Of a stretch of DNA of 64,000 bases, positions 708 to 62,984 are shown one piece after another. The position numbers and the translations under genes are program-made. Below the pieces are notes generated by a model. The model had not been told where the DNA came from. It saw only the letters and a program-made list of their open reading frames with translations, and did no database searches. The DNA is taken from NCBI RefSeq assembly GCF_001580365.1, contig NZ_CP014480.1, positions 62,001 through 126,000 of the forward strand. The letters run 5' to 3'. Position 1 is the stretch's first letter. Each line of letters starts with the position of its first letter. Source of the stretch: Kocuria turfanensis (GTDB taxonomy: Bacteria > Actinomycetota > Actinomycetes > Actinomycetales > Micrococcaceae).

Positions 708-2102
708 ATGATGCTCGACTTCACCGTTCCCGACAGCCTCCGCAACCTGGCCTCGCCCGTGCCCTCGGCGGCCGACTACCCCGGGCTGGACGACTGGCGC
801 GAGCTGCCCGCCGACCAGCAGCCGACGTGGCGCGACCACCCGGACTTCGCCGCCGCCATCGGCGAGCTCAGCGCGGTCCCGCCGCTCGTGTTCGCCGGGG
901 AGGTGGACCAGCTGCGCGAGCGCCTGGCCGAGGTCGCCCACGGCAGGGCCTTCTTCCTGCAGGGCGGCGACTGCGCCGAGACCTTCGAGGGGGCCACGGC
1001 CGACCGGATCAGCGCCCGGGTCAAGACGCTGCTGCAGATGGCCGTGGTGCTCACCTACGGCGCGTCCATGCCGGTCGTGAAGATGGGCCGCATGGCCGGC
1101 CAGTTCTCGAAGCCGCGCTCGTCCAACGACGAGACCCGGGACGGCGTCACCCTGCCGACCTTCCGCGGGGAGATGGTCAACGGCTTCGACTTCACCGAGG
1201 AGTCCCGGGTCCACGACCCCCGGCGCATGGTGCGCGGCTACCACACCTCCGCCTCCACCCTGAACCTCATCCGGGCCTTCACCACCGGCGGCTTCGCCGA
1301 CCTGCGCCTGGTGCACGCCTGGAACATGGGCTTCACCACGAACCCCGCCCACGCCCGCTACGAGTCCCTGGCCCGCGAGATCGACCGGGCCGTGAAGTTC
1401 ATGGACGCCTGCGGAGCGGACTTCGACGCGCTGCGCACCACGGAGTTCTACGCCGGGCACGAGGCGCTGCTGCTGGACTACGAGCGCGCGCTGAGCCGGA
1501 TCGACTCCCGCACCCACCTGCCGTACGGCACGTCCGGTCACTTCCTGTGGATCGGGGAGCGCACCCGGGAGCTCGACGGCGCCCACGTGGACCTGCTCTC
1601 CAAGCTGCGCAACCCGATCGGCGTGAAGCTCGGCCCGAAGACCACCGGCGACGACGCGCTGGCGCTCATCGACAAGCTCGACCCGCAGCGCGAGCCCGGC
1701 CGGCTGACCTTCATCACCCGCATGGGGGCGAAGAACATCCGGGAGAAGCTGCCGCCGCTGGTCGAGGCCGTCGAGCGCTCCGGCGCGAAGGTCGTGTGGG
1801 TCACCGACCCCATGCACGGCAACACGGTGTCGCTGCCGTCCGGGTACAAGACCCGCAACTTCGACGACGTCGTGGACGAGGTGCGCGGCTTCTTCGAGGT
1901 GCACGAGGCGATCGGCTCCTTCCCGGGCGGCATCCACGTGGAGATGACCGGTGACGACGTCGCGGAGTGCCTCGGCGGCGCCGATCCCGTGGACGAGTCC
2001 TCCTTCGAGGACCGCTACGAGTCGCTGTGCGACCCGCGGCTGAACCACATGCAGTCCCTGGAGATCGCCTTCCTCGTGGCGGGCTACCTCTCCCGCCGCT
2101 GA
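708..2102 (+). CDS. aroG: 3-deoxy-7-phosphoheptulonate synthase, class II (DAHP synthase)
   Basis: It condenses phosphoenolpyruvate and erythrose 4-phosphate, the first step of the shikimate pathway. The 464-residue length fits the plant/actinobacterial class II enzyme. Recognisable blocks are FFLQGGDCAETFEG, VKMGRMAGQFSKPRSS, GFTTNPAHARYE, HFLWIGERTRELDGAH, PIGVKLGPKT and a WVTDPMHGNT block, together the PEP, metal and phosphate sites of this class. Two adjacent ATG codons (708 and 711) are possible; AGGAAG at 701-706 sits 1 or 4 nt ahead, so the second may be preferred. It converges on the PASTA kinase gene. In mycobacteria this enzyme is feedback-inhibited and partners chorismate mutase; that partner is not in this window. 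Confidence 0.95.
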   Translation: MMLDFTVPDSLRNLASPVPSAADYPGLDDWRELPADQQPTWRDHPDFAAAIGELSAVPPLVFAGEVDQLRERLAEVAHGRAFFLQGGDCAETFEGATADRISARVKTLLQMAVVLTYGASMPVVKMGRMAGQFSKPRSSNDETRDGVTLPTFRGEMVNGFDFTEESRVHDPRRMVRGYHTSASTLNLIRAFTTGGFADLRLVHAWNMGFTTNPAHARYESLAREIDRAVKFMDACGADFDALRTTEFYAGHEALLLDYERALSRIDSRTHLPYGTSGHFLWIGERTRELDGAHVDLLSKLRNPIGVKLGPKTTGDDALALIDKLDPQREPGRLTFITRMGAKNIREKLPPLVEAVERSGAKVVWVTDPMHGNTVSLPSGYKTRNFDDVVDEVRGFFEVHEAIGSFPGGIHVEMTGDDVAECLGGADPVDESSFEDRYESLCDPRLNHMQSLEIAFLVAGYLSRR

Positions 2103-2145
2103 GCGGGGACCGGGCCGACGGGGCCGGGGCCGGACGGGCCGTCCG

Positions 2146-3990
2146 CTACAGGACGGTCAGGACGACCTCGGCCCCGTCCGTCGTCTGGGACAGCACGTAG
2201 CCGAAGGGCGCGCCGAAGCTCTCCTCGACCCGGGCGGCGAAGCCCGCCTCCCGGAGCACCCGCACCGCCTCCTCCACCGACCGGCCCACGACGTCGGGGG
2301 CGCTCTCGGCCCGCGGGCCGCGGGAGACCGCCAGGTCCACCGCCGAGCCGGCGGCCACGTCCGTGCCCGCCTCCGGGTGCTGGCCCACCACCGTGCCCGC
2401 GGCGGCGTCGTCGGCCACCGCCGTCCGCTCCCCGGCGGCCAGGTCGGCGTCGGCCAGGCGGGCGGCGGCGTCCTCCTCGCTCATCCCCACGACGTCCGGG
2501 GCGGTGACCTGCTGCGGGCCGGTCGAGACGAGCAGGACGACCTGCTCCGCGGGGCGCACGGTCGCGGAGGCGGCCGGGTCGGTGCCGATCACCGTCCCGG
2601 CGGGCGCCGCCGGATCGGGGGTCTCGTGCACGGCCACGTTGCGGAGCCCGGCCCCGGCGAGGTACTGCTGGGCGAGCTCCGGTCCGGTGCCGCGCACCTC
2701 CGGCACGCTCACCGTCCCGCCCGGCCCGGTGCCGATCAACCAGCCCAGGAAGGCGGCCGCGGCCACCGCGAGCGCGGCCAGCGCCAGGTGCGCCGCCGCG
2801 CGCAGGGGGCGCCGCGGGCGCAGCTCGATCGCGGGCCGCCACGGGTCGGAAGAGCCGGCCCGGCGCGGGGCCGGCAGCGCCTCCGTCGCCGCGACGGCCG
2901 GGCGGAGGGCCTCGGTCGGGTCCTGGTGCCGGCGCAGGGTCTCCGTCGGGGCCTGCTGCCGGCTGAGGGTCTCGGTCCGGGTGCCGCCGGGGGCGGGCGA
3001 CCCGCGGGCGTCCCGGTGCCGGCCGAGCGCCTCGGTCCGGGCGTTGCCGAGGGTGAGCGTCCCGGTCCGGGCGCTGTCCGCGCCCTCGGCCTGCGGGGCC
3101 GGGCCGCCGGTCCGCGGCCGCGGTGCGGGAGCGCGGTCGAGCTCGTCGGGGCGCAGGACCGCTCGGACCGCGCGCAGCTGCTCGAGCATCTCCCGGGCGT
3201 CCGCGGGTCGGTCCTCCGGGTCCCGGGCGGTGGCCCGGGCCACCAGCCGCGCCAGCGCCCCCGGGACACCGGGGTCGACGGACCGCAGGTCCGGCACCCT
3301 CCCCTCCGCGTGGGCGCGGGCCACGGCGAGGGGGGCGCCCTCGAACGGGCGGCGCCCGCAGAGCAGCTCGAAGAGCACGATGCCGGCCGAGTAGACGTCC
3401 GCGCGGGTGTCCACCCGCTGCCCGGTCACCAGCTCGGGGGAGGCGTAGCCGACGGTGCCCAGCACGGTGCCGCTGACGGTGTGCTGGTCGACCGCCCGGG
3501 TGAGCCCGAAGTCCGCCACGGTGACCCGGCCGCCGGCCGCGATCAGCACGTTCTCCGGCTTGACGTCGCGGTGCACCAGGCCGGCGCGGTGGGCGGCGGC
3601 CAGCCCGTCCAGGGCGGCCTCCATCACCTCCAGCGCCTCGCGCGCGGTCAGGGCGCCGCGCCGGCGCAGCAGGTCCCGCAGCGTGGAGCCCTCCACGTGC
3701 TCCATGACGAGGTAGGGCACCCCGTCCGCGGCGTGGCCCTGGTCGAGCACGGACACGACGTGCGGATGGGACAGCCGCGCGGCCGCCCGGGCCTCGCGCA
3801 CGAACCGGTCCGCCGCCGCCGGGTCCTCGGCCAGGTGCGGGTGCATGAGCTTGACGGCCACGGTGCGCTCGAGGCGCGTGTCCACCGCGCGGTACACGGT
3901 GGCCGTGCCCCCGCGGGCGATCCGGGGTCCGAGCTCGTACCGGTCCTCCAGGAGGGACCCGGTCAGGTGGTCGGGGTGCGCGTGCTGCAC
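2146..3990 (-). CDS. Ser/Thr protein kinase with three PASTA domains (PknB/PknL-like)
   Basis: A membrane kinase predicted to sense muropeptides or lipid II outside and phosphorylate proteins inside. The kinase domain covers about residues 18-275, with a Gly-rich loop ARGGTATVYRA, VAVK lysine 47, HRDVKPEN (Asp142), DFG at 160-162 and GTVGYASPE, so it should be active. A basic, Pro-rich juxtamembrane stretch holds five TE[AT]L motifs at Thr319, 339, 349, 359 and 369. A transmembrane helix follows at about 398-418, then three PASTA repeats (PEVRG, PDVVGMS, PDVVGRS). It sits where mycobacterial pknL lies, next to aroG and an Rv2175c homologue, but unlike PknL it keeps PASTA domains. The GTG start lies 6 nt after a TAGACT -10, so the mRNA is probably leaderless. 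Confidence 0.93.
   Translation of the reverse strand: MQHAHPDHLTGSLLEDRYELGPRIARGGTATVYRAVDTRLERTVAVKLMHPHLAEDPAAADRFVREARAAARLSHPHVVSVLDQGHAADGVPYLVMEHVEGSTLRDLLRRRGALTAREALEVMEAALDGLAAAHRAGLVHRDVKPENVLIAAGGRVTVADFGLTRAVDQHTVSGTVLGTVGYASPELVTGQRVDTRADVYSAGIVLFELLCGRRPFEGAPLAVARAHAEGRVPDLRSVDPGVPGALARLVARATARDPEDRPADAREMLEQLRAVRAVLRPDELDRAPAPRPRTGGPAPQAEGADSARTGTLTLGNARTEALGRHRDARGSPAPGGTRTETLSRQQAPTETLRRHQDPTEALRPAVAATEALPAPRRAGSSDPWRPAIELRPRRPLRAAAHLALAALAVAAAAFLGWLIGTGPGGTVSVPEVRGTGPELAQQYLAGAGLRNVAVHETPDPAAPAGTVIGTDPAASATVRPAEQVVLLVSTGPQQVTAPDVVGMSEEDAAARLADADLAAGERTAVADDAAAGTVVGQHPEAGTDVAAGSAVDLAVSRGPRAESAPDVVGRSVEEAVRVLREAGFAARVEESFGAPFGYVLSQTTDGAEVVLTVL
2857..3040 (-). repeat. degenerate 30-nt (10-residue) repeat in the kinase juxtamembrane linker
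   Basis: Threonines of the motif T-E-[A/T]-L fall at residues 319, 339, 349, 359 and 369 of the kinase, so the last four are spaced exactly ten residues apart. The following residues are also alike (SRQQ, RRHQ, RPAV). At DNA level the phrase 'agggtctc(c/g)gtc' recurs about every 30 nt. The copies have diverged, so this is an older repeat than the one in ftsQ. Confidence 0.7.
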
Positions 3991-4002
3991 GGGATCAGTC
4001 TA
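3991..4002 (-). promoter_or_regulatory. -10 element directly before the PASTA kinase start
   Basis: On the minus strand TAGACT (3997-4002) is followed by six bases and then the GTG start at 3990. This is the spacing expected when transcription begins on the first base of the start codon. There is no Shine-Dalgarno sequence between them. Confidence 0.6.
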
Positions 4003-4035
4003 GAGCGCGGCGCTGTGCGGCGGCTGGGCCGCGGC

Positions 4036-5238
4036 TCACGCGCCGAACGACCGGCGGTGGGCCTTGACGCTCTTGACGTACTTCTTCGTGTCGTCGTACA
4101 TCCCGTACTTCTTCACCCCGTGCAGGCCCTGGTAGTAGGCGGCGATGGCCACGTCGGTGCTGGGCGCGCTGCGGCCGAGCTGGCGGATGATCGCGACCCC
4201 GGCGGTGACGTTGTCCTGCGGGTCGAGCAGGTCGAGCTCGCGGCCGACGAGTCCCGACGCCCACTCCCCGGCGTCCGGGATGACCTGCATGGTGCCCACG
4301 GCGTCGGCGGGGGAGACCGCCTGGTGGTCGAACCCGGACTCCTGGTAGGCGTGGGCGAGCGCGAGGGCGGGGTCCACGCCCATCTGCACGGCGGTGTCGT
4401 GGACGATCCGCCGCATCTCCTCCCGGGACGGTGCCGGCCGGGAGGCCAGCTGCTCGTGGTGGCGGTTCGCGGACTCCACCACGTCCCGCTCGTAGGTCCG
4501 GCCGAGGAACGTGTCCCCGACGGCGCGCTCGGGCTCCGGCGCGGCCTTCCGCGCGGGCTCCGTCCCGGCGGGCTCCGGGGCGGCCGCGGGCCGGACGGCG
4601 CCGGCGACCGACAGCTTCTGGCCGGGGCGCAGCAGCGAGCCGACGGTGAGGTCGTTGTCGTCCAGCAGCTGCTGGACCGACACGTCGTGGGCCTGGGCGA
4701 TGCTCCACAGCGTGTCCCCGGAGCGCACGACGTGCTCGGTGGCCGCCGGCGCGGTGCGCGGCTGCGGTGCCGCGGGGGCCGGGTCCTCGGCGGCCCGGGA
4801 CGCCCCGGACCCCGGGGCGGCGGACTCCGGGGCGGCCAGGCGGAGGGTCTGTCCGGGCAGGAGCAGGGCGGCGCCGGAGAGGTCGTTCCAGCGCATCAGC
4901 TCGTCGACGGCCACGCCGTGGCGCTGGGCGACCGCCCACAGGGAGTCCCCGGGGGCGACGGTGTGCTCAGGGGCCGTGGGCGCCTTCTTTCCCAGCACCA
5001 GGGGCGCCGGGGCCACCTGGGAGGTCTGGGCCGGGGCGGCGTGGGCCACGGTGCCCCCGCCGAGGGCGGCCATGGCGGCCACGGCGGTCACCGCGGAGCC
5101 GGTCCTCGCGCGGCGGGCCCAGCGGGGGGAGCGGTCCTCCCGGGCCCCGCAGCTCCCGTCGGGGTCGCCGGTGCGGGCGGTGGTGCGGTGCGGTGCGTCG
5201 TTCGGGTCGGTCGTGTCGCGCTCGGGGGGAAACGGCAT
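4036..5238 (-). CDS. secreted LysM-domain lytic transglycosylase
   Basis: A predicted exported peptidoglycan-cleaving enzyme of 400 residues. After a long charged N-terminus comes a hydrophobic stretch ending AHAAPAQT (about residues 48-70), which looks like a signal peptide. Two LysM wall-binding domains follow, each starting with EHTVAPGDSLW or EHVVRSGDTLW. The C-terminal third is an SLT (lysozyme-like) domain with the catalytic glutamate in QESGFDHQAVS and the GTMQVIPDAG and AAYYQG motifs. The ATG at 5238 is chosen because it precedes the signal peptide; the frame stays open far upstream only because GC-rich DNA lacks stops. It lies beside the PASTA kinase, suggesting linked control of wall turnover. 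A TATGCT -10 at 5301-5306 (minus) would give a short leader of about 55 nt, too short for a ydaO riboswitch. Confidence 0.88.
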   Translation of the reverse strand: MPFPPERDTTDPNDAPHRTTARTGDPDGSCGAREDRSPRWARRARTGSAVTAVAAMAALGGGTVAHAAPAQTSQVAPAPLVLGKKAPTAPEHTVAPGDSLWAVAQRHGVAVDELMRWNDLSGAALLLPGQTLRLAAPESAAPGSGASRAAEDPAPAAPQPRTAPAATEHVVRSGDTLWSIAQAHDVSVQQLLDDNDLTVGSLLRPGQKLSVAGAVRPAAAPEPAGTEPARKAAPEPERAVGDTFLGRTYERDVVESANRHHEQLASRPAPSREEMRRIVHDTAVQMGVDPALALAHAYQESGFDHQAVSPADAVGTMQVIPDAGEWASGLVGRELDLLDPQDNVTAGVAIIRQLGRSAPSTDVAIAAYYQGLHGVKKYGMYDDTKKYVKSVKAHRRSFGA

Positions 5239-5300
5239 GAAGTGGCTCTCTGACGCTGATCGGGGAAGAGGCGGAGGTCTCAGCGGTCTCCGCGGGTCCG

Positions 5301-5306
5301 AGCATA
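5301..5306 (-). promoter_or_regulatory. candidate -10 for the LysM transglycosylase gene
   Basis: TATGCT on the minus strand, with an expected start of transcription near 5294 and a leader of about 55 nt. It lies back to back with the promoter of the Rv2175c-like gene. No convincing -35 is visible. Confidence 0.45.
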
Positions 5307-5346
5307 CCGTGCGGGTCCCGCGTGGCACGGGCACCGGCGGACGTGG

Positions 5347-5358
5347 CACTCTGGGGGC
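5347..5358 (+). promoter_or_regulatory. -10 element directly before the Rv2175c-like gene
   Basis: CACTCT (5347-5352), six bases, then the GTG start at 5359. The spacing predicts a leaderless transcript; no ribosome binding site is present. Confidence 0.5.
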
Positions 5359-5745
5359 GTGAAGAAGACATCCGGAAACAGCACCGAGGAGTTCGACCGT
5401 CTGGACGGCCTCGTCCAGGACTGGCTGCCCCTGCCCGACGTCGCCGAACAGCTCGGTCTCGTGGTCACCCGCGTCCACGGTCTCGTCGACGACGGGACGC
5501 TGCTCGCGGTGCGCAACCCGCACGACAACATCCGACGGATCCCGGCGGCCTTCCTCCTGGACGGCGCCGTGCTCGACTCCCTCAAGGGCACCGTGGCGGT
5601 CCTCCGGGACTCCGGGTTCACCGACGCGGAGGCGATCGCCTGGCTGTTCACCGAGGACGAGTCCCTGCCGGGCCGGCCCGTGGACGCCCTGCGCGACGGC
5701 CGCAAGACGGAGATCCGCCGCCGCGCCCAGGCCCTGGCCTGGTGA
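5359..5745 (+). CDS. Rv2175c-family DNA-binding protein
   Basis: A 128-residue protein resembling mycobacterial Rv2175c, a winged-helix DNA-binding protein phosphorylated by the neighbouring kinase PknL. The N-terminal half (VQDWLPLPDVAEQLGLVVTR and the following basic IRRIPAAFLLDGAV) reads as the helix-turn-helix, and the C-terminal half (GTVAVLRDSGFTDAEAIAWL) as a helical domain. The mycobacterial substrate threonine is N-terminal; here Thr4 and Thr9 are the candidates. Keeping this gene near the Ser/Thr kinase supports a kinase-regulator pair, although here a wall hydrolase gene lies between them. The start is the GTG just after a -10 element. DNA targets are unknown. Confidence 0.8.
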   Translation: MKKTSGNSTEEFDRLDGLVQDWLPLPDVAEQLGLVVTRVHGLVDDGTLLAVRNPHDNIRRIPAAFLLDGAVLDSLKGTVAVLRDSGFTDAEAIAWLFTEDESLPGRPVDALRDGRKTEIRRRAQALAW

Positions 5746-5792
5746 CCCGGTCCTGAGCCCCGGCGGGCGTGCGCGCCCGGCGCCCGGGCGCG

Positions 5793-20787: not shown

Positions 20788-21911
20788 CACCGTCCGAACC
20801 GACCACCGAGGGCGCCGCCCCGTCGGTCCTGCTCGCCGGCGGCGGCACCGCCGGGCACGTGAGCCCCCTGCTGGCCGTGGCCGCCGCCCTGCGCGAGCAG
20901 GCCCCGGGAGCCCGGCTCACGGCGGTGGGCACCGCCTCCGGGATGGAGACCCGGCTCGTGCCGCAGGCCGGGCTCGCGCTCGAGCTCGTCGACCGGGTGC
21001 CGCTGCCCCGGCGGATCTCCGTGGACCTCGCCCGGCTGCCCGGGCGGCTGCTCGCCGCCGTGCGGCAGGCGGGGGAGATCCTGGACCGGGTGCGCCCGGA
21101 CGTGGTGGTCGGCGTCGGCGGGTACGTCTGCACCCCCGTCTACCTCGCCGCCGCCCGGCGCGGGCTGCCCGTCGTGGTGCACGAGGCCAACGCCCGCCCC
21201 GGCCTCGCCAACCGGGTGGGCGCGCGCTGGGCCCGGACCGTGGCCACCGCGTTCCCCGGCACGCCCCTGCGCGGGGCCGTCACCGTGGGCATGCCCATGC
21301 GCCGGGAGATCGCCGGCCTGGACCGGGCGGGCCGGCGCGCCGAGGCCCGCCGGTCCTTCGGGCTCGACCCCGACGTGCCCACCGTCGTGGTCACCGGCGG
21401 CTCCTCCGGGGCCCTGAACATGAACCGGACCGTGGCCGCGGTGGCCGGGGAGGTCGCCGCCCACGGCCACCAGCTGCTGCACGTCACCGGTCGCGGCAAG
21501 CAGGTCACCCGCGACGACGGCACCCTGCTGGAGGCCCCCGGCTACGTGCAGGTCGAGTACGTCGACGGCATGGAACGGGTCTACGCCGCCGCGGACCTGC
21601 TCGTGGCCCGCGCCGGGGCGGCGACCGTCTCCGAGGTCGCGGCCGTCGGGCTCCCGGCCGTGTTCGTGCCGCTGCCCGTGGGCAACGGCGAGCAGGCGCT
21701 CAACGCCGCCTCCCTCGTGGCCGCGGGTGCGGCGCGGCTGGTGTCCGACGACGCCTTCACCCCCGACTGGTACCGCGAGCACGTCCACCCGCTGCTGGCC
21801 GCGCCCGACGGGCTCGCCGCCATGGCCGCCGCCAGCCGGGAGCACGGCGTGCGCGACGCCGACGCCGTCCTGGCGCGGCTGATCCTCGAGGAGGTCCCCC
21901 GTGGTCGCTGA
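20784..21911 (+). CDS. murG: UDP-GlcNAc:lipid I GlcNAc transferase MurG
   Basis: A GT-B fold enzyme on the inner membrane face that converts lipid I to lipid II. The 375 residues show the lipid I-binding [57 protein letters not shown] and the nucleotide-sugar end site [23 protein letters not shown] with NGEQALNA. It overlaps ftsW by 4 bp and murC by 11 bp. Confidence 0.96.
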
Positions 21912-23304
21912 GCACCAGCTCGACCCCGGCCGGCTGGGCCGGGTGCACTTCATCGGCATGGGCGGGGCCGGGATGTCCGCCGTCGCCAAGCTCATGCTCG
22001 CCCACGGCGTCCCGGTCAGCGGCTCCGACCGGCAGGACTCCCCGGCGCTGCGCCAGCTCGAGGACCTGGGCGCCACGGTGTTCGTGGGCCAGCGGGCCGA
22101 GCACGTCACCGGGGCCCGGACCGTGGTGGTCTCCACCGCCATCCCGCCGGAGGACCCCGAGTACGCCGCGGCGCGGGCCGCCGGGCTGCGCGTGCTGCAC
22201 CGCTCCGACGCCCTGGCCGCCACGATGCACGGCCGCGACGTCGTGGCGGTGGCCGGCACCCACGGCAAGACCACCACGAGCGCGATGGCCGCCCTGGCCC
22301 TGCACGCCGCGGGCCGGCACCCCTCCTGGGCGATCGGCGCGCACGTGGCCGACCTCGGGGCCAACGCCGCCCTCGGGGACGGCCGGTGGTTCGTGGCGGA
22401 GGCCGACGAGTCCGACGGCTCCTTCCTGAAGTACGGTCCCCGGGTCGCGGTGGTCACCAACATCGAGCCGGACCACCTCGACTTCTACCCGTCCCGCGAG
22501 GCCTTCTACCAGGCCTTCGACGACTTCGCCGCGACCCTGACCGGGGACGGGCTGCTCGTGGCCTGCCAGGACGACCCCGGCTCGCGGGCCCTGGCCGAGC
22601 GGCACCGGGCCGCGGGCGGACGGGTGGTCAGCTACGGCACCGACGCGACCGCGGACGTGCGGGTGCTCCCGCACGGGACCGACGGGCTGCGCACCCACAG
22701 CACCCTGGTGCTGGGGGAGGGCGCCGACCGCCGCGAGGAGCAGCTCGAGCTCGCGGTGCCCGGGCGGCACAACGTGCTCAACGCCACCGCCGCCTTCTGC
22801 GTGGCCGTCGAGGCCGGCGTCCCGCCCGCGGACGCCGTACGCGGGCTGGCCGGTTTCCACGGCTCGGCCCGGCGCTTCGACCTGCGGGGCGAGGGCCGCG
22901 GCGTGCGGGTCTTCGACGACTACGCCCACCACCCCACCGAGGTCGTCGCGGCCCTCACCGCGGCCCGGGAGGTCGCCGGCGGGCACCGGGTGATCGCCAT
23001 CTTCCAGCCCCACCTGTTCTCCCGGACCCGGCAGTTCGCCGCGGAGTTCGCCGACGCCCTCGCCCTCGCGGACGAGAGCCTGGTCATCGACGTCTTCGCC
23101 GCGCGCGAGCAGCCGGTCGCGGGGCTGACCAGCGAGGTCATCACCGAGCGCGCCCCCGCCCACGTCCGCTACGTCCCCGACGGCGCGCAGGCGGTCGCCG
23201 AGGCCGCCCGTGCCGCCCGCCCCGGCGACCTGGTGCTCACGGTCGGGGCCGGTGACGTCACCCGGCTCGGCCCCCTGCTCGTGGACCGGCTCGGGGAGAG
23301 CTGA
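21901..23304 (+). CDS. murC: UDP-MurNAc:L-alanine ligase MurC
   Basis: Adds L-alanine to UDP-MurNAc, the first peptide step. The 467 residues show [30 protein letters not shown] (P-loop), [38 protein letters not shown] and FQPHLFSRT. The GTG start lies inside the murG 3' end, and the stop overlaps the ftsQ start as TGATG. Confidence 0.96.
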
Positions 23305-25028
23305 TGAGCCGGCACGGCCGACCGCACCAGCCCCGGTTCGGGGAGGACCCCCGGGACGCCGGCACCCCCGCCCCGGAGGCTCCGGAGGCCCCTGGGGTCC
23401 CGGCCGCGGCAACGCCCACCCCGGGCCCCCTCGACCCCGGCGCCCCCGCCGGAGACGGCCGGGACGGGGCTCCCGGGGACACCGCCGGGGACCGGTCCGC
23501 CGCCGGGCCCTGGTCCGCCCTCCCCGCCGAAGGGGCGGGGCGGAGCGGACGGGTGCGCGTGAACGACGGGACCAAGGTCTCGCCCGTCTCCGACGAGGAC
23601 GAGCTCGTGGAGGTCCCCGCGGCGGGCGGCCGGTTCAGCGCCTGGCGCCGGCACCGGCAGGAGCGCGCCCCGTCCCGCACGCTCACCGCCTCCCGGGTGC
23701 CGGCGGAGCCCGGCCACCACGGTTCCACCGCGGCCGGTCCCACCGGGGCCGGTTCCACCGCGGCCGGTCCCACCGGGGCCGGTTCCACCGCGGCCGGTCC
23801 CACCGGGGCCGGTTCCACCGCGGCCGGTCCCACCGGGGCCGGTTCCACCGCGGCCGGTCCCACCGGGGCCGGTTCCACCGCGGCCGGTCCCACCGGGGCC
23901 GGTTCCACCGCGGCCGGTCCCACCGGGGCCGGTTCCACCGCGGCCGGTCCCACCGGGGCCGGTTCCACCGCGGCCGGTCCCACCGGGGCCGGTTCCACCG
24001 CGGCCGGTCCCACCGGGGCCGGTTCCACCGCGGCCGGTCCCACCGGGGCCGGTTCCACCGCGGCCGGTCCCACCGGGGCCGGTTCCACCGCGGCCGGTCC
24101 CACCGGGGCCGGTTCCACCGCGGCCGGTCCCACCGGGGCCGGTTCCACCGCGGCCGGTCCCACCGGGGCCGGTTCCACCGCGGCCGGTCCCACCGGGGCC
24201 GGTTCCACCGCGGCCGGTCCCACCGGGGCCGGTTCCACCGCGGCCGGTCCCACCGGGGCCGGTTCCACCGCGGCCGGTGCCACTGCGGCCGGTTCGTCTG
24301 CGGCCGGGGCCACCGTCGTCGCGTTCCCCGCCTCGGCCGGCGTCCGGCGCCGGCGCCGCCGGCTCGGCGCCGCCCTGGGGGCGCTCGTAGCCCTCGCCGT
24401 GCTCGCCGGCGTGCTGTTCCTCTCCCCGGCCCTCGCCGTGCGGGACATCACCGTGCGCGGCGCCCAGCTGACCGACCCCGCCGGCGTCGAGGAGACCCTG
24501 GAGGGCTACCGCGGGACCCCGCTGACCCGGATCTCGAAGCAGGATGTCCGTGAGCGGGTCGGCGCGATCCCGCAGGTCCGCTCGATCGAGGTCGTGCTCG
24601 AGCCCCCGCACCACCTGATCGTGGAGCTGCACGAGCGGGTGCCGGTGGCCGCGGTCCAGGACGGCGACGAGTTCGCGGTCGTGGACTCCGAGGGCGTGCG
24701 GCTGGCCACCGCGGCCACCGCCGAGGAGGCCGCCGTGCCGGTGGTCACGGGCGGCCCCGACGTGCTGGAGGGCGAACGGTTCGACGCCATCACCGACGTG
24801 CTGGCCGCCCTGCCCGAGTCCGTCCTCGCCCAGCTGCGCACGGCCTCGGCCGAGTCCCTGTCCTCTGTGGAGCTGACGTTCACCGACGGCCGCACCGTCG
24901 TGTGGGGCACCGCCGAGGACAGCGAGCTGAAGGCGCAGGTGCTCCGGGAGCTCGTCGAGGCGCGCGGGGCCGGCAGCGGCGTGGAGATCTACGACGTGTC
25001 CAGCCCCACGCGCCCCGTGGTGCGCTGA
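23304..25028 (+). CDS. ftsQ: cell division protein FtsQ with a 200-residue GSTAAGPTGA repeat insert
   Basis: A bitopic division protein linking FtsL/FtsB to the septal synthase. At 574 residues it is about twice the usual length. The excess is cytoplasmic: residues 1-139 are Pro/Gly-rich and acidic, and residues 140-319 are 18 exact repeats of GSTAAGPTGA, followed by two decayed copies (320-339). A run of six arginines (about 348-353) precedes the transmembrane helix (about 354-374). The extracellular POTRA domain starts AVRDITVRGAQLTDPAGV and the FtsQ beta domain ends at VVR. The conserved part looks intact, so the gene is probably functional with a very long disordered tail. A sequencing collapse or expansion of the repeat would not disturb the frame because the unit is 30 nt. 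Confidence 0.92.
   Translation: MSRHGRPHQPRFGEDPRDAGTPAPEAPEAPGVPAAATPTPGPLDPGAPAGDGRDGAPGDTAGDRSAAGPWSALPAEGAGRSGRVRVNDGTKVSPVSDEDELVEVPAAGGRFSAWRRHRQERAPSRTLTASRVPAEPGHHGSTAAGPTGAGSTAAGPTGAGSTAAGPTGAGSTAAGPTGAGSTAAGPTGAGSTAAGPTGAGSTAAGPTGAGSTAAGPTGAGSTAAGPTGAGSTAAGPTGAGSTAAGPTGAGSTAAGPTGAGSTAAGPTGAGSTAAGPTGAGSTAAGPTGAGSTAAGPTGAGSTAAGPTGAGSTAAGPTGAGSTAAGATAAGSSAAGATVVAFPASAGVRRRRRRLGAALGALVALAVLAGVLFLSPALAVRDITVRGAQLTDPAGVEETLEGYRGTPLTRISKQDVRERVGAIPQVRSIEVVLEPPHHLIVELHERVPVAAVQDGDEFAVVDSEGVRLATAATAEEAAVPVVTGGPDVLEGERFDAITDVLAALPESVLAQLRTASAESLSSVELTFTDGRTVVWGTAEDSELKAQVLRELVEARGAGSGVEIYDVSSPTRPVVR
23721..24320 (+). repeat. 30-bp tandem repeat in ftsQ: 18 exact copies plus two degenerate copies
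   Basis: Unit positions 23721-23750, 23751-23780 and so on to 24260 are identical base for base; 24261-24290 and 24291-24320 are decayed copies (GSTAAGATAA, GSSAAGATVV). Each unit is itself two related 15-nt halves, encoding GSTAA and GPTGA and differing at two bases. The array contains no stop in any of the six frames, which produces several long artefactual open frames on both strands. Perfect identity indicates recent expansion or continual homogenisation. Confidence 0.98.
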
Positions 25029-25277: not shown

Positions 25278-26525
25278 ATGGACTCCTCCACCCCCCAGAA
25301 CTACTTGGCCGTCATCAAGGTCGTCGGAATCGGCGGCGGCGGTGTCAACGCCGTCAACCGGATGATCGAGGAGGGGCTGCGCGGCGTCGAGTTCATCGCG
25401 ATCAACACGGACGCCCAGGCCCTGCTGATGAGCGACGCCGACGTCAAGCTGGACGTCGGGCGCGAGCTGACCCGCGGCCTGGGCGCCGGCGCCAACCCCG
25501 ATGTCGGGCGCCAGGCGGCGGAGGACCACCACGAGGAGATCGAGGAGGTCCTCAAGGGGGCCGACATGGTGTTCGTGACCGCCGGCGAGGGCGGCGGCAC
25601 CGGCACCGGCGGCGCCCCCGTGGTCGCCCGGATCGCCCGCTCCCTGGGGGCCCTGACCATCGGCGTGGTCACCCGCCCGTTCACCTTCGAGGGCCGCCGC
25701 CGCTCCAACCAGGCGGAGAACGGCATCGAGACCCTGCGCGACGAGGTCGACACCCTCATCGTGATCCCCAACGACCGGCTGCTGTCGATCTCCGACCGCA
25801 ACGTGTCCATGCTCGACGCCTTCAAGTCCGCGGACCAGGTGCTGCTCTCCGGCGTGCAGGGGATCACCGACCTCATCACCACCCCGGGCCTGATCAACCT
25901 CGACTTCGCCGACGTGAAGTCCGTGATGCAGGGCGCCGGCTCGGCGCTCATGGGCATCGGCGCGGCCCAGGGCGAGGACCGCGCGGTGAAGGCCGCGGAG
26001 CTCGCGATCGCCTCCCCGCTGCTGGAGGCCTCCATCGACGGCGCCCACGGCGTGCTGCTGTCCATCCAGGGCGGCTCCGACCTCGGCCTGTTCGAGATCA
26101 ACGAGGCGGCCCGCCTGGTCCAGGAGGTGGCCCACCCGGAGGCGAACATCATCTTCGGCGCCGTCATCGACGACGCCCTCGGCGACCAGGCCCGGGTCAC
26201 CGTCATCGCCGCCGGCTTCGACTCCGTGAGCCCGGAGACCAACGCGAACAACACCAACGCCGCCGCCCAGCAGGCCGCGAGCACCCGCGCCGCCTTCGGC
26301 TCCGGCGCCGGCCAGCCCGCCGGCCTGGGCCGCTCCCCGCAGCGCGGCGGCACCGCCTCCTTCGGCCAGCCCGCCACCGCGCAGCGGTGGGCCCAGCCGG
26401 TGGCCAACGACGACGTGCCCGACGACGCCGGCTTCGACGTCGACCTGCCCGCCGAGGCCGAGGCCGGCTCGCCCGCCGGCTCCGCCCGCAAGGACTCCCT
26501 GGACTTCCCCGACTTCCTGAAGTGA
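25278..26525 (+). CDS. ftsZ: cell division GTPase FtsZ
   Basis: The tubulin-like GTPase that forms the division ring. The 415 residues include [18 protein letters not shown] at the N-terminus, the GTP-binding [13 protein letters not shown], the T7 loop region [13 protein letters not shown] that completes the active site of the neighbouring subunit, a variable Ala/Gly/Asn linker, and the C-terminal peptide [10 protein letters not shown] used for binding SepF and other partners. It has its own upstream region and a strong terminator immediately after the stop, so it can be expressed apart from the mur genes. Confidence 0.98.
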
Positions 26526-49761: not shown

Positions 49762-49831
49762 TCGCGCGGCGGTGACACGCGCGCCGGGCCCGGGCTGTGG
49801 ACGGCCCCGACGGCACCGGCCCCCGACCGGG

Positions 49832-49843
49832 CATGCTGGGCAC
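49832..49843 (+). promoter_or_regulatory. -10-like element before the kinase-like gene
   Basis: CATGCT (49832-49837), six bases, ATG 49844. It differs from consensus at the first base. Confidence 0.4.
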
Positions 49844-51669
49844 ATGCACCAAGGCAGCCCCGCACCGGGCGGCCGGCACCCCGGGTCCCGGCCGGCACCC
49901 GCCTCCGCGCGGGACCGGCTCGCGGCGGCCGTGCGCGGCGACGCCCGCGGTCCCTGGCCGCACGGGACGGAGGAACCGCTCCCGCGGCTGCCGCCGGAGG
50001 AGGGGCTCGAGCCGGTCCGGCGGCTCGGCGACGGCTCGTGGCTCGTGCGCGAGACCCGCTCCCGGGAGGTCTTCGTCCTGCGGCTCTGCACGGGGGCGGA
50101 CGGCGCGGAGCGTGCCGCCTCCCGCCGCGCCCTGCTGGCGCTCGCCGTCGACCTGGCCGGCCGGGAGGAACCCCACGTGGTGGCCGTGCGCGGGCTGCTC
50201 GGACCCGCCGCGGAGCCCGTGGGCCTCGTCGAGGAGTTCCTGCCGGGCGGGTCCCTGGCGGAGCGCCTTGCCGAGCGCGGGCCGCTGGCCCCGGACGAGG
50301 CGGCCGCGGTGCTCCGCGACGCCGCGGCGGGGCTGGCCGTGCTGCACGGCCTGGGCCGGTGCCACGGGGAGCTCACCGCCCGGCAGATCCTCTTCCGCAC
50401 CGCCGGAACCGGGACCTGCAACCGGCCCGGTCCGGAGAGCGGTCCCGGCGGCGGGCCGGAGGACGGTGCCAGGACCGGGGCGGGGAGGGGAACCGGCGGT
50501 GGGCCGGAGGCCGGGGCGGGAGGGGGAACCAGCGGTGGGCCGGAGGACGGTGCCGGGACCCGGCCGGAGGGCGGCACCGGCGGCGGCCCTCCGGCCGTGG
50601 CGGCGGTACGGCCGGGCACCGGGGAGGGGAGCCCGCCGGGGGACGTGCGGGCGCTCGGGGTCGTCGGCTGGACGGTGCTCACGGGCCGGGCCCCGGCCGC
50701 CGCCCGGCACCGGGCCCCGCTGGCACGGCTGCGCCCGGACGTCCCGGACCCGCTCCGCCGGGCGGTGGAGGCGGCGCTCGCGGAGAACCCGTCCGACCGT
50801 CCCACCGCCGCGGAGATGGCCGCCGGGCTCGGGCTCCTGCCGACTCCGGTCCCGACGGCCGCGGCTCCGGCAGCCGCGGGCCTTCGGCGGGTCCGCGCAC
50901 CCGCTGGGCGCCCCGCGGCCCCGCGGCCGCCCGGTCGTCCCGCCGGACGGCGCGCGGCGCCGCGGCCGCCCCGTCGTCCCGCCGGCGCACGGCGCTCCTC
51001 GCCGTGGCTGCCGCGCTCGTGCTGGGCGCCGGCACAGGGCTGCTGCGGCCCGGCCCGGACCCGGGGGCGTCGCACCCGCCCCTCGCCCCGACCGGGTCGG
51101 CAGGAGTTCCCGAGGCAGCCCTGCAGGACCCGCGCCTCCCGGAGCCGGCCGGCTCGGGCGCGCACGTCCCGGACCCGGCCGTCCCGTCCGCGGCCGACCC
51201 GACCGTGGGGGACCGGATCGAGCCGGGGGAGCCGCAGGAGGCCCTGCGCCGGCTCGTCGCCCGGCGCGGCGAGGCCCTGCGGAGCGGGGACGCCCGGCTG
51301 CTCGACCGGGTCTACGTCCCCGGGGCGGACGCCGCGGCGGACGACCGGGCCAGCATCGCGCGGGCCGCTGCGGCCGGGGACCGGGTGTTCGCCGACCTCG
51401 TGCTGGAGGCCGTGCGGATCCGGGGCGCCGCCCCGGGCCCGGGAGCTTCGGCGCCGGGGAGCGTCGCGCTCGAGGCCGAGGTGCTGGTCGAGGGCTACCG
51501 GGGCGATCCCGGGCGGGACCCGTCGGTGCTGCCGGCGGTCGAGGGATGGGTGCAGACCGTCGTCGTGGTCCTGGTCCGCGGCGAGGAGGGATGGCGGCTG
51601 GCCTCCGTGGAGCCCCATCGGGAGCGCCCGGCGGGGACGGGAGCGGCAACGCAGAGCCCCCGGCGCTGA
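49844..51669 (+). pseudogene. kinase-like membrane protein gene split by a frameshift
   Basis: The first part (from ATG 49844, [10 protein letters not shown]) reads as a degenerate Ser/Thr kinase: [19 protein letters not shown] in place of VAIK (no lysine), [17 protein letters not shown], and [12 protein letters not shown] in place of HRDLKPxN. No DFG is present; a Gly-rich repeat occupies that region. C-lobe sequence continues to AAEMAAGLGLL near 50840. The second part, in another frame, reads [20 protein letters not shown], a transmembrane helix, and an outside domain to the stop at 51669 (EALRRLVARRGEALRSGDA, GWRLASVEPHRERP), perhaps an NTF2-like fold. The frames change between about 50850 and 50990, as after a 1-nt loss. 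Either a broken gene, a sequencing error in GC-rich DNA, or less likely programmed slippage. Confidence 0.7.
50443..50592 (+). repeat. imperfect Gly-rich repeats in the kinase-like gene
   Basis: Phrases such as 'ggtgggccggagg' and 'gaggacggtgcc' recur at about 30-60 nt and code for GGGPEDGA / GGPEAGA units. They replace the activation-segment region of a normal kinase. Confidence 0.6.
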
Positions 51670-51686
51670 ACGGCGGCACCGGGGGC
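51656..51686. terminator. hairpin over the end of the kinase-like gene
   Basis: An 8-bp stem (51656-51663 with 51679-51686) whose loop contains the stop codon; it lies between two convergent genes. Confidence 0.45.
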
Positions 51687-51706
51687 GGGGTCGTGCGGGG
51701 CGGCTC

Positions 51707-52054
51707 TCACCAGAGGGTCGCGACCGCCATGTTGATCAGGGCCAGGCCGCCCACCGCGTGGGCCAGGCCGGTCGAGACCGGCTCGCCACGCCTGGTGCGC
51801 CGCTGTCCCACGAACGCGGCCACCGCCACGGCCAGGGCCACGAGCAGCTTGACCGCGATCTTGACGTGGTTGACGTCGCCGTCGCCCATCTCGTGGATCG
51901 CCACGAGCAGCAGCCCGGTGAGCAGGCTCAGCAGCGAGGCGTGGAACTGACCCGGGGAGACCGTGGGGCGCTTCATGGTGTAGATCCAGGTGCCCACGAT
52001 GATCGCGGCGCCGACGAGGTGCAGGAAGACGAGGAGTCCGGTCAGGAAGGTCAT
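51707..52054 (-). CDS. small four-helix membrane protein, conserved hypothetical
   Basis: A 115-residue integral membrane protein. It starts MTFLTGLLVFLHLVGAAIIVG and continues through KRPTVSPGQFHASLLSLLTG, EMGDGDVNHVKIAVKLLVAL and a last helix ending INMAVATLW, giving about four membrane segments. Conserved polar residues in the loops (H in FHAS, HEMGDGDVNH) may bind metal or haem, but this is speculation. Similar proteins occur in Arthrobacter relatives. ATG 52054 lies 7 nt after TAGGCT, so the transcript is probably leaderless; the longer frame to 52087 starts before that box. Confidence 0.8.
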   Translation of the reverse strand: MTFLTGLLVFLHLVGAAIIVGTWIYTMKRPTVSPGQFHASLLSLLTGLLLVAIHEMGDGDVNHVKIAVKLLVALAVAVAAFVGQRRTRRGEPVSTGLAHAVGGLALINMAVATLW

Positions 52055-52067
52055 GGATCCGAGCCTA
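52055..52067 (-). promoter_or_regulatory. -10 element directly before the small membrane protein gene
   Basis: Minus-strand TAGGCT (52062-52067), seven bases, ATG at 52054. Confidence 0.55.
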
Positions 52068-52089
52068 ATCGAGCGTCCCCGGGGCACGG

Positions 52090-52130
52090 CGAGGGGGCGT
52101 GCTCCCTGTGATCGGGAACACGCCCCCTCG
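52090..52130 (-). terminator. hairpin after sucB
   Basis: A 12-bp stem (52090-52101 with 52119-52130) with an extra inner TCCC/GGGA pairing. It separates sucB from the small membrane protein gene. Confidence 0.7.
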
Positions 52131-61487: not shown

Positions 61488-62984
61488 GTGTCACCTTCCG
61501 CCAGCAAGAAGACGACGGACACCGCCGCCGAGGCTCCGGTCACCGGGGACGCTCGGTCGCCGTCCGGGTCCGCGGGCACGTCGCCGCGGGCGAAGACCGC
61601 CGCCGCGAAGTCCACCGCGGCCAAGAAGACCGTGGCCGCGAAGAAGACCACGGCCACCAAGACCACTGCCGCCAAGTCCACGGCCGCGAAGTCCACCGCC
61701 GCGAAGTCCACGGCCACCAGGACCACGGCCGCGAAGTCGACCGCGGCGACGCCGACGGCCGCCCCGGCGTCCGCGCCCGCCCAGAAGCCGGCGACCCGCA
61801 AGAAGGCCGCCCCGAAGAAGGGGGAGCCGGCCGTCACCGGCGAGCTGGACACGGACGTCGAGGTCGCCGACGACGCGGACCTCGAACCGGACCTGACCGA
61901 CGAGGCCGGCGTCGTCGACCCCGACGTGGAGGAGGACGAGGACGTCGCGGAGGAGGCGCCGGCGGAGGACGAGGTCGCGGCGCCCGCGCGCAAGGACGAG
62001 AAGACCTCCGGCTTCGTCATCACCGCCAACGACGACGACGACGCCCCGGCCCAGCAGGTCGTCTCCGCCGGGGCGACCGCCGACCCCGTCAAGGACTACC
62101 TGAAGCAGATCGGCAAGGTCGCCCTGCTGAACGCCGAGCAGGAGGTCGACCTGGCCCTGCGGATCGAGGCGGGCCTGTACGCCGAGCACAAGCTCGCCGA
62201 CGAGAAGGACAGCCTGGACCCCCAGACCCGCAAGGAGCTGCGCTGGGTGATCCACGACGGCAAGCGCGCCAAGAACCACCTGCTCGAGGCCAACCTGCGC
62301 CTGGTCGTCTCGCTGGCCAAGCGCTACACCGGGCGCGGCATGCTGTTCCTGGACCTCATCCAGGAGGGCAACCTCGGTCTGATCCGCGCGGTGGAGAAGT
62401 TCGACTACACCAAGGGCTTCAAGTTCTCCACCTACGCCACGTGGTGGATCCGCCAGGCCATCACCCGCGCCATGGCCGACCAGGCCCGCACCATCCGCAT
62501 TCCCGTGCACATGGTGGAGGTCATCAACAAGCTGGCGCGCGTCCAGCGGCAGATGCTGCAGGACCTGGGCCGGGAGCCCACCCCGGAGGAGCTGGCCAAC
62601 GAGCTGGACATGACCCCCGAGAAGGTCGTGGAGGTGCAGAAGTACGGCCGGGAGCCGATCTCCCTGCACACCCCGCTGGGCGAGGACGGCGACTCCGAGT
62701 TCGGTGACCTGATCGAGGACTCGGAGGCCGTGGTCCCGGCCGACGCGGTGAGCTTCACGCTCCTGCAGGAGCAGCTGCACTCCGTCCTGGACACCCTCTC
62801 CGAGCGGGAGGCCGGCGTCGTCGCCATGCGCTTCGGCCTCACCGACGGCCAGCCGAAGACCCTCGACGAGATCGGCAAGGTCTACGGCGTGACCCGGGAG
62901 CGCATCCGGCAGATAGAGTCCAAGACGATGTCCAAGCTGCGCCACCCGTCCCGCTCGCAGGTGCTGCGCGACTACCTCGACTGA
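61488..62984 (+). CDS. sigA: primary RNA polymerase sigma factor
   Basis: The housekeeping sigma-70 (HrdB/SigA). The 498 residues begin with a histone-like tail of Lys/Ala/Thr repeats ([10 protein letters not shown], about 35-90), then an acidic stretch (about 110-170, region 1.1-like). Region 1.2 is [20 protein letters not shown]; region 2 has [20 protein letters not shown] and [19 protein letters not shown]; region 3 starts [13 protein letters not shown]; region 4 has [22 protein letters not shown] 61488 follows GAAAGG. Confidence 0.97.
61588..61755 (+). repeat. degenerate repeats coding the Lys/Ala/Thr tail of SigA
   Basis: Units such as 'gccgcgaagtccaccgcc' recur at 9-18 nt and code for AAKST and AAKKT. 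The region is close to H1-like tails. Confidence 0.75.

Follow-up and report, generated by a model that had tools for sequence, protein, structure and literature searches.

The window analysed here, a stretch of 64,000 nucleotides from Kocuria turfanensis, carries on its plus strand the gene ftsQ (23304..25028), which encodes a 574-aa protein recognised by Pfam as FtsQ/DivIB and whose ATG overlaps by one base the stop of the upstream murC frame (21901-23304), while the ftsZ frame lies downstream (25278-26525). The two neighbours are presumed to be murC and ftsZ from the look of their sequences, and with these assignments the gene has its place in a division and cell-wall cluster, murC-ftsQ-ftsZ. 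FtsQ is generally essential in other bacteria. The membership of the family is also based on the domain order, since POTRA_1 (residues 378-445) and FtsQ_DivIB_C (residues 449-554), both above the curated Pfam cut-off (24435..24965, plus strand), come after a single predicted N-terminal membrane helix. This helix (residues 346-373; 24339..24422, plus strand) is seen in the AlphaFold model and presumably spans the membrane; directly ahead of it is the juxtamembrane segment formed by VVAFP and six arginines (24315..24362, plus strand). Nearer to the N-terminus is a cytoplasmic block conserved in the clade, at residues 84-135 (VRVNDG...FSAWRRHRQ...TLTASR; 23553..23708, plus strand) that includes an AlphaFold helix. 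In total, about 340 residues stand ahead of the membrane helix, 200 of which form a tandem array.

From position 23721, eighteen 30-bp units follow one another back to back with 0 differences (23721..24260, plus strand), each of them composed of GGTTCCACCGCGGCC-GGTCCCACCGGGGCC and encoding GSTAA-GPTGA; the next two units (24261..24320, plus strand) are decayed, with 3 and 8 differences respectively, and encode GSTAA GATAA GSSAA GATVV, the final 15-bp module of which, GATVV, is the juxtamembrane module common to most of the clade. The exact period-30 run extends over 559 bp (23720-24278), and the unit-by-unit comparison reproduces the eighteen identical and two decayed copies reported in the initial annotation. 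The two halves of the unit match at 13 of 15 positions and modules of 15 bp are found at the same site in relatives, which sustains the idea, also put forward there, of a growth from two related 15-nt halves. Chance can be excluded because the TRF score of the array is 1136 versus 214 for the runner-up in the window, and because the scan of the window for exact runs of at least 60 matching positions at periods 6-399 gave no other run (the multiples of 30 being the same array). Head-to-tail and in-frame units, of a size within about 10-100 bp, characterise this element as a coding minisatellite.

The unit is free of stops in all six frames, as the initial annotation had stated, and consequently the open frames crossing the array say nothing about an additional gene; such a gene, on the minus strand or in another frame, was rejected, these frames being uninformative. 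A Pfam match to PMG over the array (23.7 bits against a cut-off of 29) was attributed to low-complexity chance. Slippage driven by hairpins was also discarded as the driver, given that single-strand folds of 3 and 2 units, on both strands, were not clearly better than shuffles (z of -0.88, 0.48, -1.53, and -0.60).

Together with its decayed end, the array corresponds to FtsQ residues 140-339 and contains Gly, Ala, Thr, Ser, and Pro plus 2 Val, with 0 charged residues. In the AlphaFold run on the FtsQ of the window with 44 sequences, the block pLDDT is 38-48 across the array, a short helix is found at residues 110-121 (pLDDT 75 for the block 111-120), and values of 81-97 are reached from residue 351 onward, including the POTRA and C-terminal domains. 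The uncharged, Gly/Thr/Ala-rich and disordered character proposed at the outset is in line with both the composition and these values. The same proposal of a 200-residue cytoplasmic tail holds for the cytoplasmic side and fails for the tail; in fact, the array is an internal linker, N-terminal to the membrane helix, between the FSAWRR helix and the VVAFP-Arg6-membrane segment.

The search for FtsQ in 148 genomes, that of the window included, gave a match in 143, the closest other genome showing 86% core identity. Of 131 proteins, 49 from Kocuria were readable by a motif parse, and the remaining 82 are devoid of the motif set (other genera, fusions, and partial proteins). In these 49 proteins the linker has a median length of 22 residues and a range of 17-87, against 205 in the window; the comparison of ftsQ lengths suggested in advance by the initial annotation returned no single fixed number. 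F[STG].WR is present in 48 of the 49 proteins; a VVAFP-like motif and at least four arginines occur in 49/49, counts that are partly built in because the parse selecting the proteins required such motifs. The minimal linker of 17 residues, shared by 22 of the 49, consists of two 15-bp modules of the GSTAV-GATVV type. Linkers of at least 35 residues were found in 5/49 proteins plus the window; on the core tree they need 4 changes, and 19 of 500 shuffles of the labels gave a number equally low. Starred branches force at least 2 of these changes, so the tree demands two origins or more, the exact number being uncertain.

Diverged arrays, from 3 to about 16 modules long, occupy the ftsQ site in several other Kocuria lineages. 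In particular, the modules of two of these loci, L011 and L013, differ from one another in DNA, at third codon positions too. Among the first 30 loci scanned (periods 2-20, 75% match; the reading of L029 began at an incorrect start, that of several loci at a stop instead of a start), repeats were present in 5, namely the window, its near relatives L011, L012, and L013, and L037, the latter belonging to another genus and bearing Gly/Thr-rich hexamer repeats. A further 40 FtsQ regions from the 143 genomes with a match (39 outside the genus plus G020; protein periods 3-20, 80% match) contained no long array and 2 short weak runs, which speaks against such arrays being widespread in FtsQ. The partial FtsQ of Kocuria sp. 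NPDC057446 (P0064) begins within a Gly/Ser-rich linker, where a longer array may have interrupted the contig. Among the papers listed in the literature searched, judged by titles and abstract openings, no earlier report of a tandem array in FtsQ was found.

The most informative comparison is with P0001, a K. turfanensis protein retrieved from the protein database (3,779,917-base contig) with 99% core identity to the FtsQ of the window; the two differ at 3 positions within the 238 residues that begin at TVVAFP and at 1 residue in the block ahead of the linker. Its linker, GSTAA-GPTGA-GSTAA-GSSAA-GATAA-GATVV, holds the equivalent at protein level of one 30-bp unit. Copy number thus varies between strains, 1 in this sister strain and 18 here at the protein level, in accordance with the length variation between close strains and the in-frame changes of copy number that had been anticipated for a unit multiple of three. 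Since so similar a protein has one unit versus 18, the expansion is considered very recent and, as far as the identity of FtsQ and PabB tells, it probably took place within one species. No FtsQ of 574 residues was present among the protein-database matches listed, one listing of which excluded proteins so long. The annotated start of P0001 is internal (321 aa) and relatives begin elsewhere, which may reflect either the choice of the start or an upstream break.

The ftsQ array is accompanied by others in the same genome. Exact arrays (period 9-300, at least 2.5 copies and at least 45 bp) were surveyed in 844 kb, consisting of the window and 39 stretches of 20 kb, plus 12 kb of contig 2: the 844 kb contain 8, of which 3 are of at least 100 bp (ftsQ, a 43-bp unit, and a 54-bp unit), and the contig-2 stretch contains no exact array. 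The relatives G003 and G014, surveyed over 400 kb each, have 4 and 2 exact arrays respectively and 0 of at least 100 bp; the comparison, 3 long arrays in 844 kb versus 0 in 800 kb, is based on a small sample that includes the array for which the window was picked. The 43-bp unit, with halves of 21 and 22 bp, is repeated 8.9 times (L123:3697-4078, that is G000:C1:833697-834078) in an apparent intergenic gap flanked by the minus-strand frames 1989-3506 and 4087-5784, both taken as genes; it is overlapped by a third frame on the minus strand (3977-5365) and by open frames on the plus strand. Due to this position in an apparent gap between genes, the reading frame would be irrelevant for this array.

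The 54-bp unit, corresponding to 18 aa, is repeated 5.1 times in frame (L061:17669-17943, that is G000:C1:2737669-2737943) in an 828-residue PabB/PabC-like protein, whose relatives are named aminodeoxychorismate synthase/lyase in databases. Matches were obtained in 26 further genomes of the genus; at the 11 loci inspected, the pabB loop has no perfect array of this kind, and the nearer relatives P0134-P0136 show diverged modules in it. P0133, taken as belonging to the same K. turfanensis genome as P0001 because their contigs are equally long, has one pabB unit versus 5 here. P0132, a pabB protein (12,852-base contig, source not given), is identical to that of the genome of the window over 654 residues starting at GYLGY and has 2 units versus 5; it could come from a draft assembly of this very strain in which the array was shortened, or represent genuine variation in length, and in principle the number of ftsQ copies is open to a similar doubt. 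The units in ftsQ, pabB, and the 43-bp array are all dimers of related halves, and none of 2000 letter shuffles made for each unit reached its half-shift score.

These observations are better explained by a general mutational process, with the frame kept in genes, than by selection on FtsQ, mainly because both ftsQ and pabB have one unit in the sister strain. The repair background of the genome includes NucS (the search was positive in 7/14 control genomes), and MutS gave no match by a search that was positive in 11/14 control genomes. Loops of 30 nt lie outside canonical mismatch repair, and for this reason NucS without MutS is regarded as a background, not as a proof. In a review, NucS repair is described as unable to correct indels (PMC8228993).

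On the whole, the array is probably a young coding minisatellite, recently grown in a disordered and length-tolerant cytoplasmic linker of FtsQ. The state commonest in relatives is two 15-bp modules (GSTAV-GATVV) ahead of the membrane anchor, and duplication of modules has generated the diverged arrays of several lineages. In the state represented by P0001, a Pro/Gly-variant module is placed between two identical GSTAA modules, an arrangement equivalent, at the protein level, to a 30-bp dimer bordered by a direct repeat. The rise from 1 to 18 units could have come about when this dimer underwent replication slippage or unequal recombination, and inside genes only units of whole codons would survive. 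The outcome would be a longer passive tether from the FSAWRR helix to the membrane, of 205 residues versus a median of 22, whose simplest reading is a near-neutral one.

The FtsQ linker is a case of an ordinary mechanism in an unusual host gene for a coding minisatellite. Bacterial coding minisatellites, or VNTRs, share with it head-to-tail units multiple of three, a strain-dependent copy number, and the location in a disordered region of low constraint; they are usually found in surface proteins. In contrast, the ftsQ array belongs to a core division protein, in which it occupies the cytoplasmic linker, and each of its units combines two 15-bp modules as a dimer, all 18 copies being identical. 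In contingency (phase-variable) loci the number of repeats may shift by slippage, as may occur in ftsQ; however, a unit of ten codons changes the length stepwise and the on/off frameshift of those loci does not apply, since ftsQ cannot be switched off by frameshift through the array. A further likeness is with the higher-order satellites of eukaryotic centromeres, in which monomers are diverged, multimers are identical, and dimeric units are amplified; the amplified unit of ftsQ is likewise a dimer, but the arrays described here are bacterial, short, and partly coding, and three unrelated ones share the pattern. With respect to the protein, the extended N-terminus with a disordered region preceding the membrane helix recalls other actinobacterial FtsQ/DivIB, such as the FtsQ of Mycobacterium ulcerans, for which an extended disordered cytoplasmic region is described at residues 1-61 (PMC9846249). 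The difference is in the size, about 340 residues ahead of the helix in the protein of the window, most of which come from the recent array.

Three other explanations have been considered. The first is a selected tuning of length, in which the linker would set the reach of the FSAWRR helix away from the membrane, in the direction of FtsZ or another partner, with slippage as the source of graded, reversible variants, as in a contingency-like locus that tunes rather than switches. The motifs kept on either side while the length of the linker varies, the expansions not confined to a single lineage of the clade, and a unit that preserves the frame are all consistent with it; nevertheless, it is judged unlikely, considering that this genome has similar arrays inside a pabB-like gene and in what looks like an intergenic gap, and that 17 residues suffice in 22/49 relatives. 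Roles of the array in division tuning, condensation, or as an FtsZ spacer, advanced by the initial annotation, are possible but speculative.

The second explanation is an old array held identical by gene conversion, the active homogenisation that had been offered beside recent expansion as an option. The lack of differences across 540 bp and the order of the decayed modules, GATAA-GSSAA in the window versus GSSAA-GATAA in the sister strain, speak for it. On the other hand, the arrays of L011 and L013 at this very site are diverged module by module, and as arrays here do decay, zero divergence is read as youth; the sister strain, moreover, has one unit. Homogenisation is therefore very unlikely and recent expansion is the option that stands. 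Hardly probable at all is the third, an assembly artefact with a lower or different real copy number of ftsQ in the strain, since the pabB units of P0132 (2 versus 5 in an otherwise identical stretch) do indicate that assemblies of the lineage disagree, or that arrays vary, in length, but the genome (G000) consists of 5 contigs, the largest of 3.74 Mb, as a long-read assembly would give, draft assemblies tend to contract arrays and rarely expand them, and the array fades out gradually, through decayed units, at one of its ends.

Beyond the preferred reading of a young minisatellite, a bolder one, rather unlikely, is that the length of the FtsQ linker works as an evolvable dial or, in a milder form, that the genome has undergone a burst of growth of dimer-unit minisatellites. 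With such a dial, cells of the Kocuria rosea-turfanensis group would lengthen stepwise the tether of a division protein, because a 15-bp module liable to slippage is placed right between the cytoplasmic helix and the membrane anchor, and the strain of the window would be at the long end; a burst would instead point to a change in repair or replication. A linker of 205 residues in a generally essential protein may have an effect. Polymer scaling (0.55 N^0.6 nm) gives a rough reach of 13 nm for 205 residues against about 3.0-3.5 nm for linkers of 17-22, and the ideal-chain estimate is smaller, 4.9 nm and 1.4-1.6 nm respectively, these rough calculations being the sole basis for a longer reach. 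Close relatives offer a natural allele series with linkers of 17, 22, 35, 45, 62, 87, and 205 residues, among others, and conserved flanking motifs, which makes the influence of the FtsQ tether length directly testable. Furthermore, three unrelated perfect arrays that are all dimers of diverged halves, in a lineage without a MutS match, hint at a recombination rule by which the length of identity would decide the unit to be amplified.

Imperfect repeats are found elsewhere in the window. The frame at 61488-62984, whose product is taken to be sigma-factor-like from its sequence, has in the N-terminal part of the protein a degenerate Lys/Thr/Ala pentapeptide repeat (61590-61762 by TRF), and imperfect Gly-rich repeats of 24/36/84 bp are located at 50421-50603 inside a large plus frame (49772-52111), the start of which presumably resembles a protein kinase.
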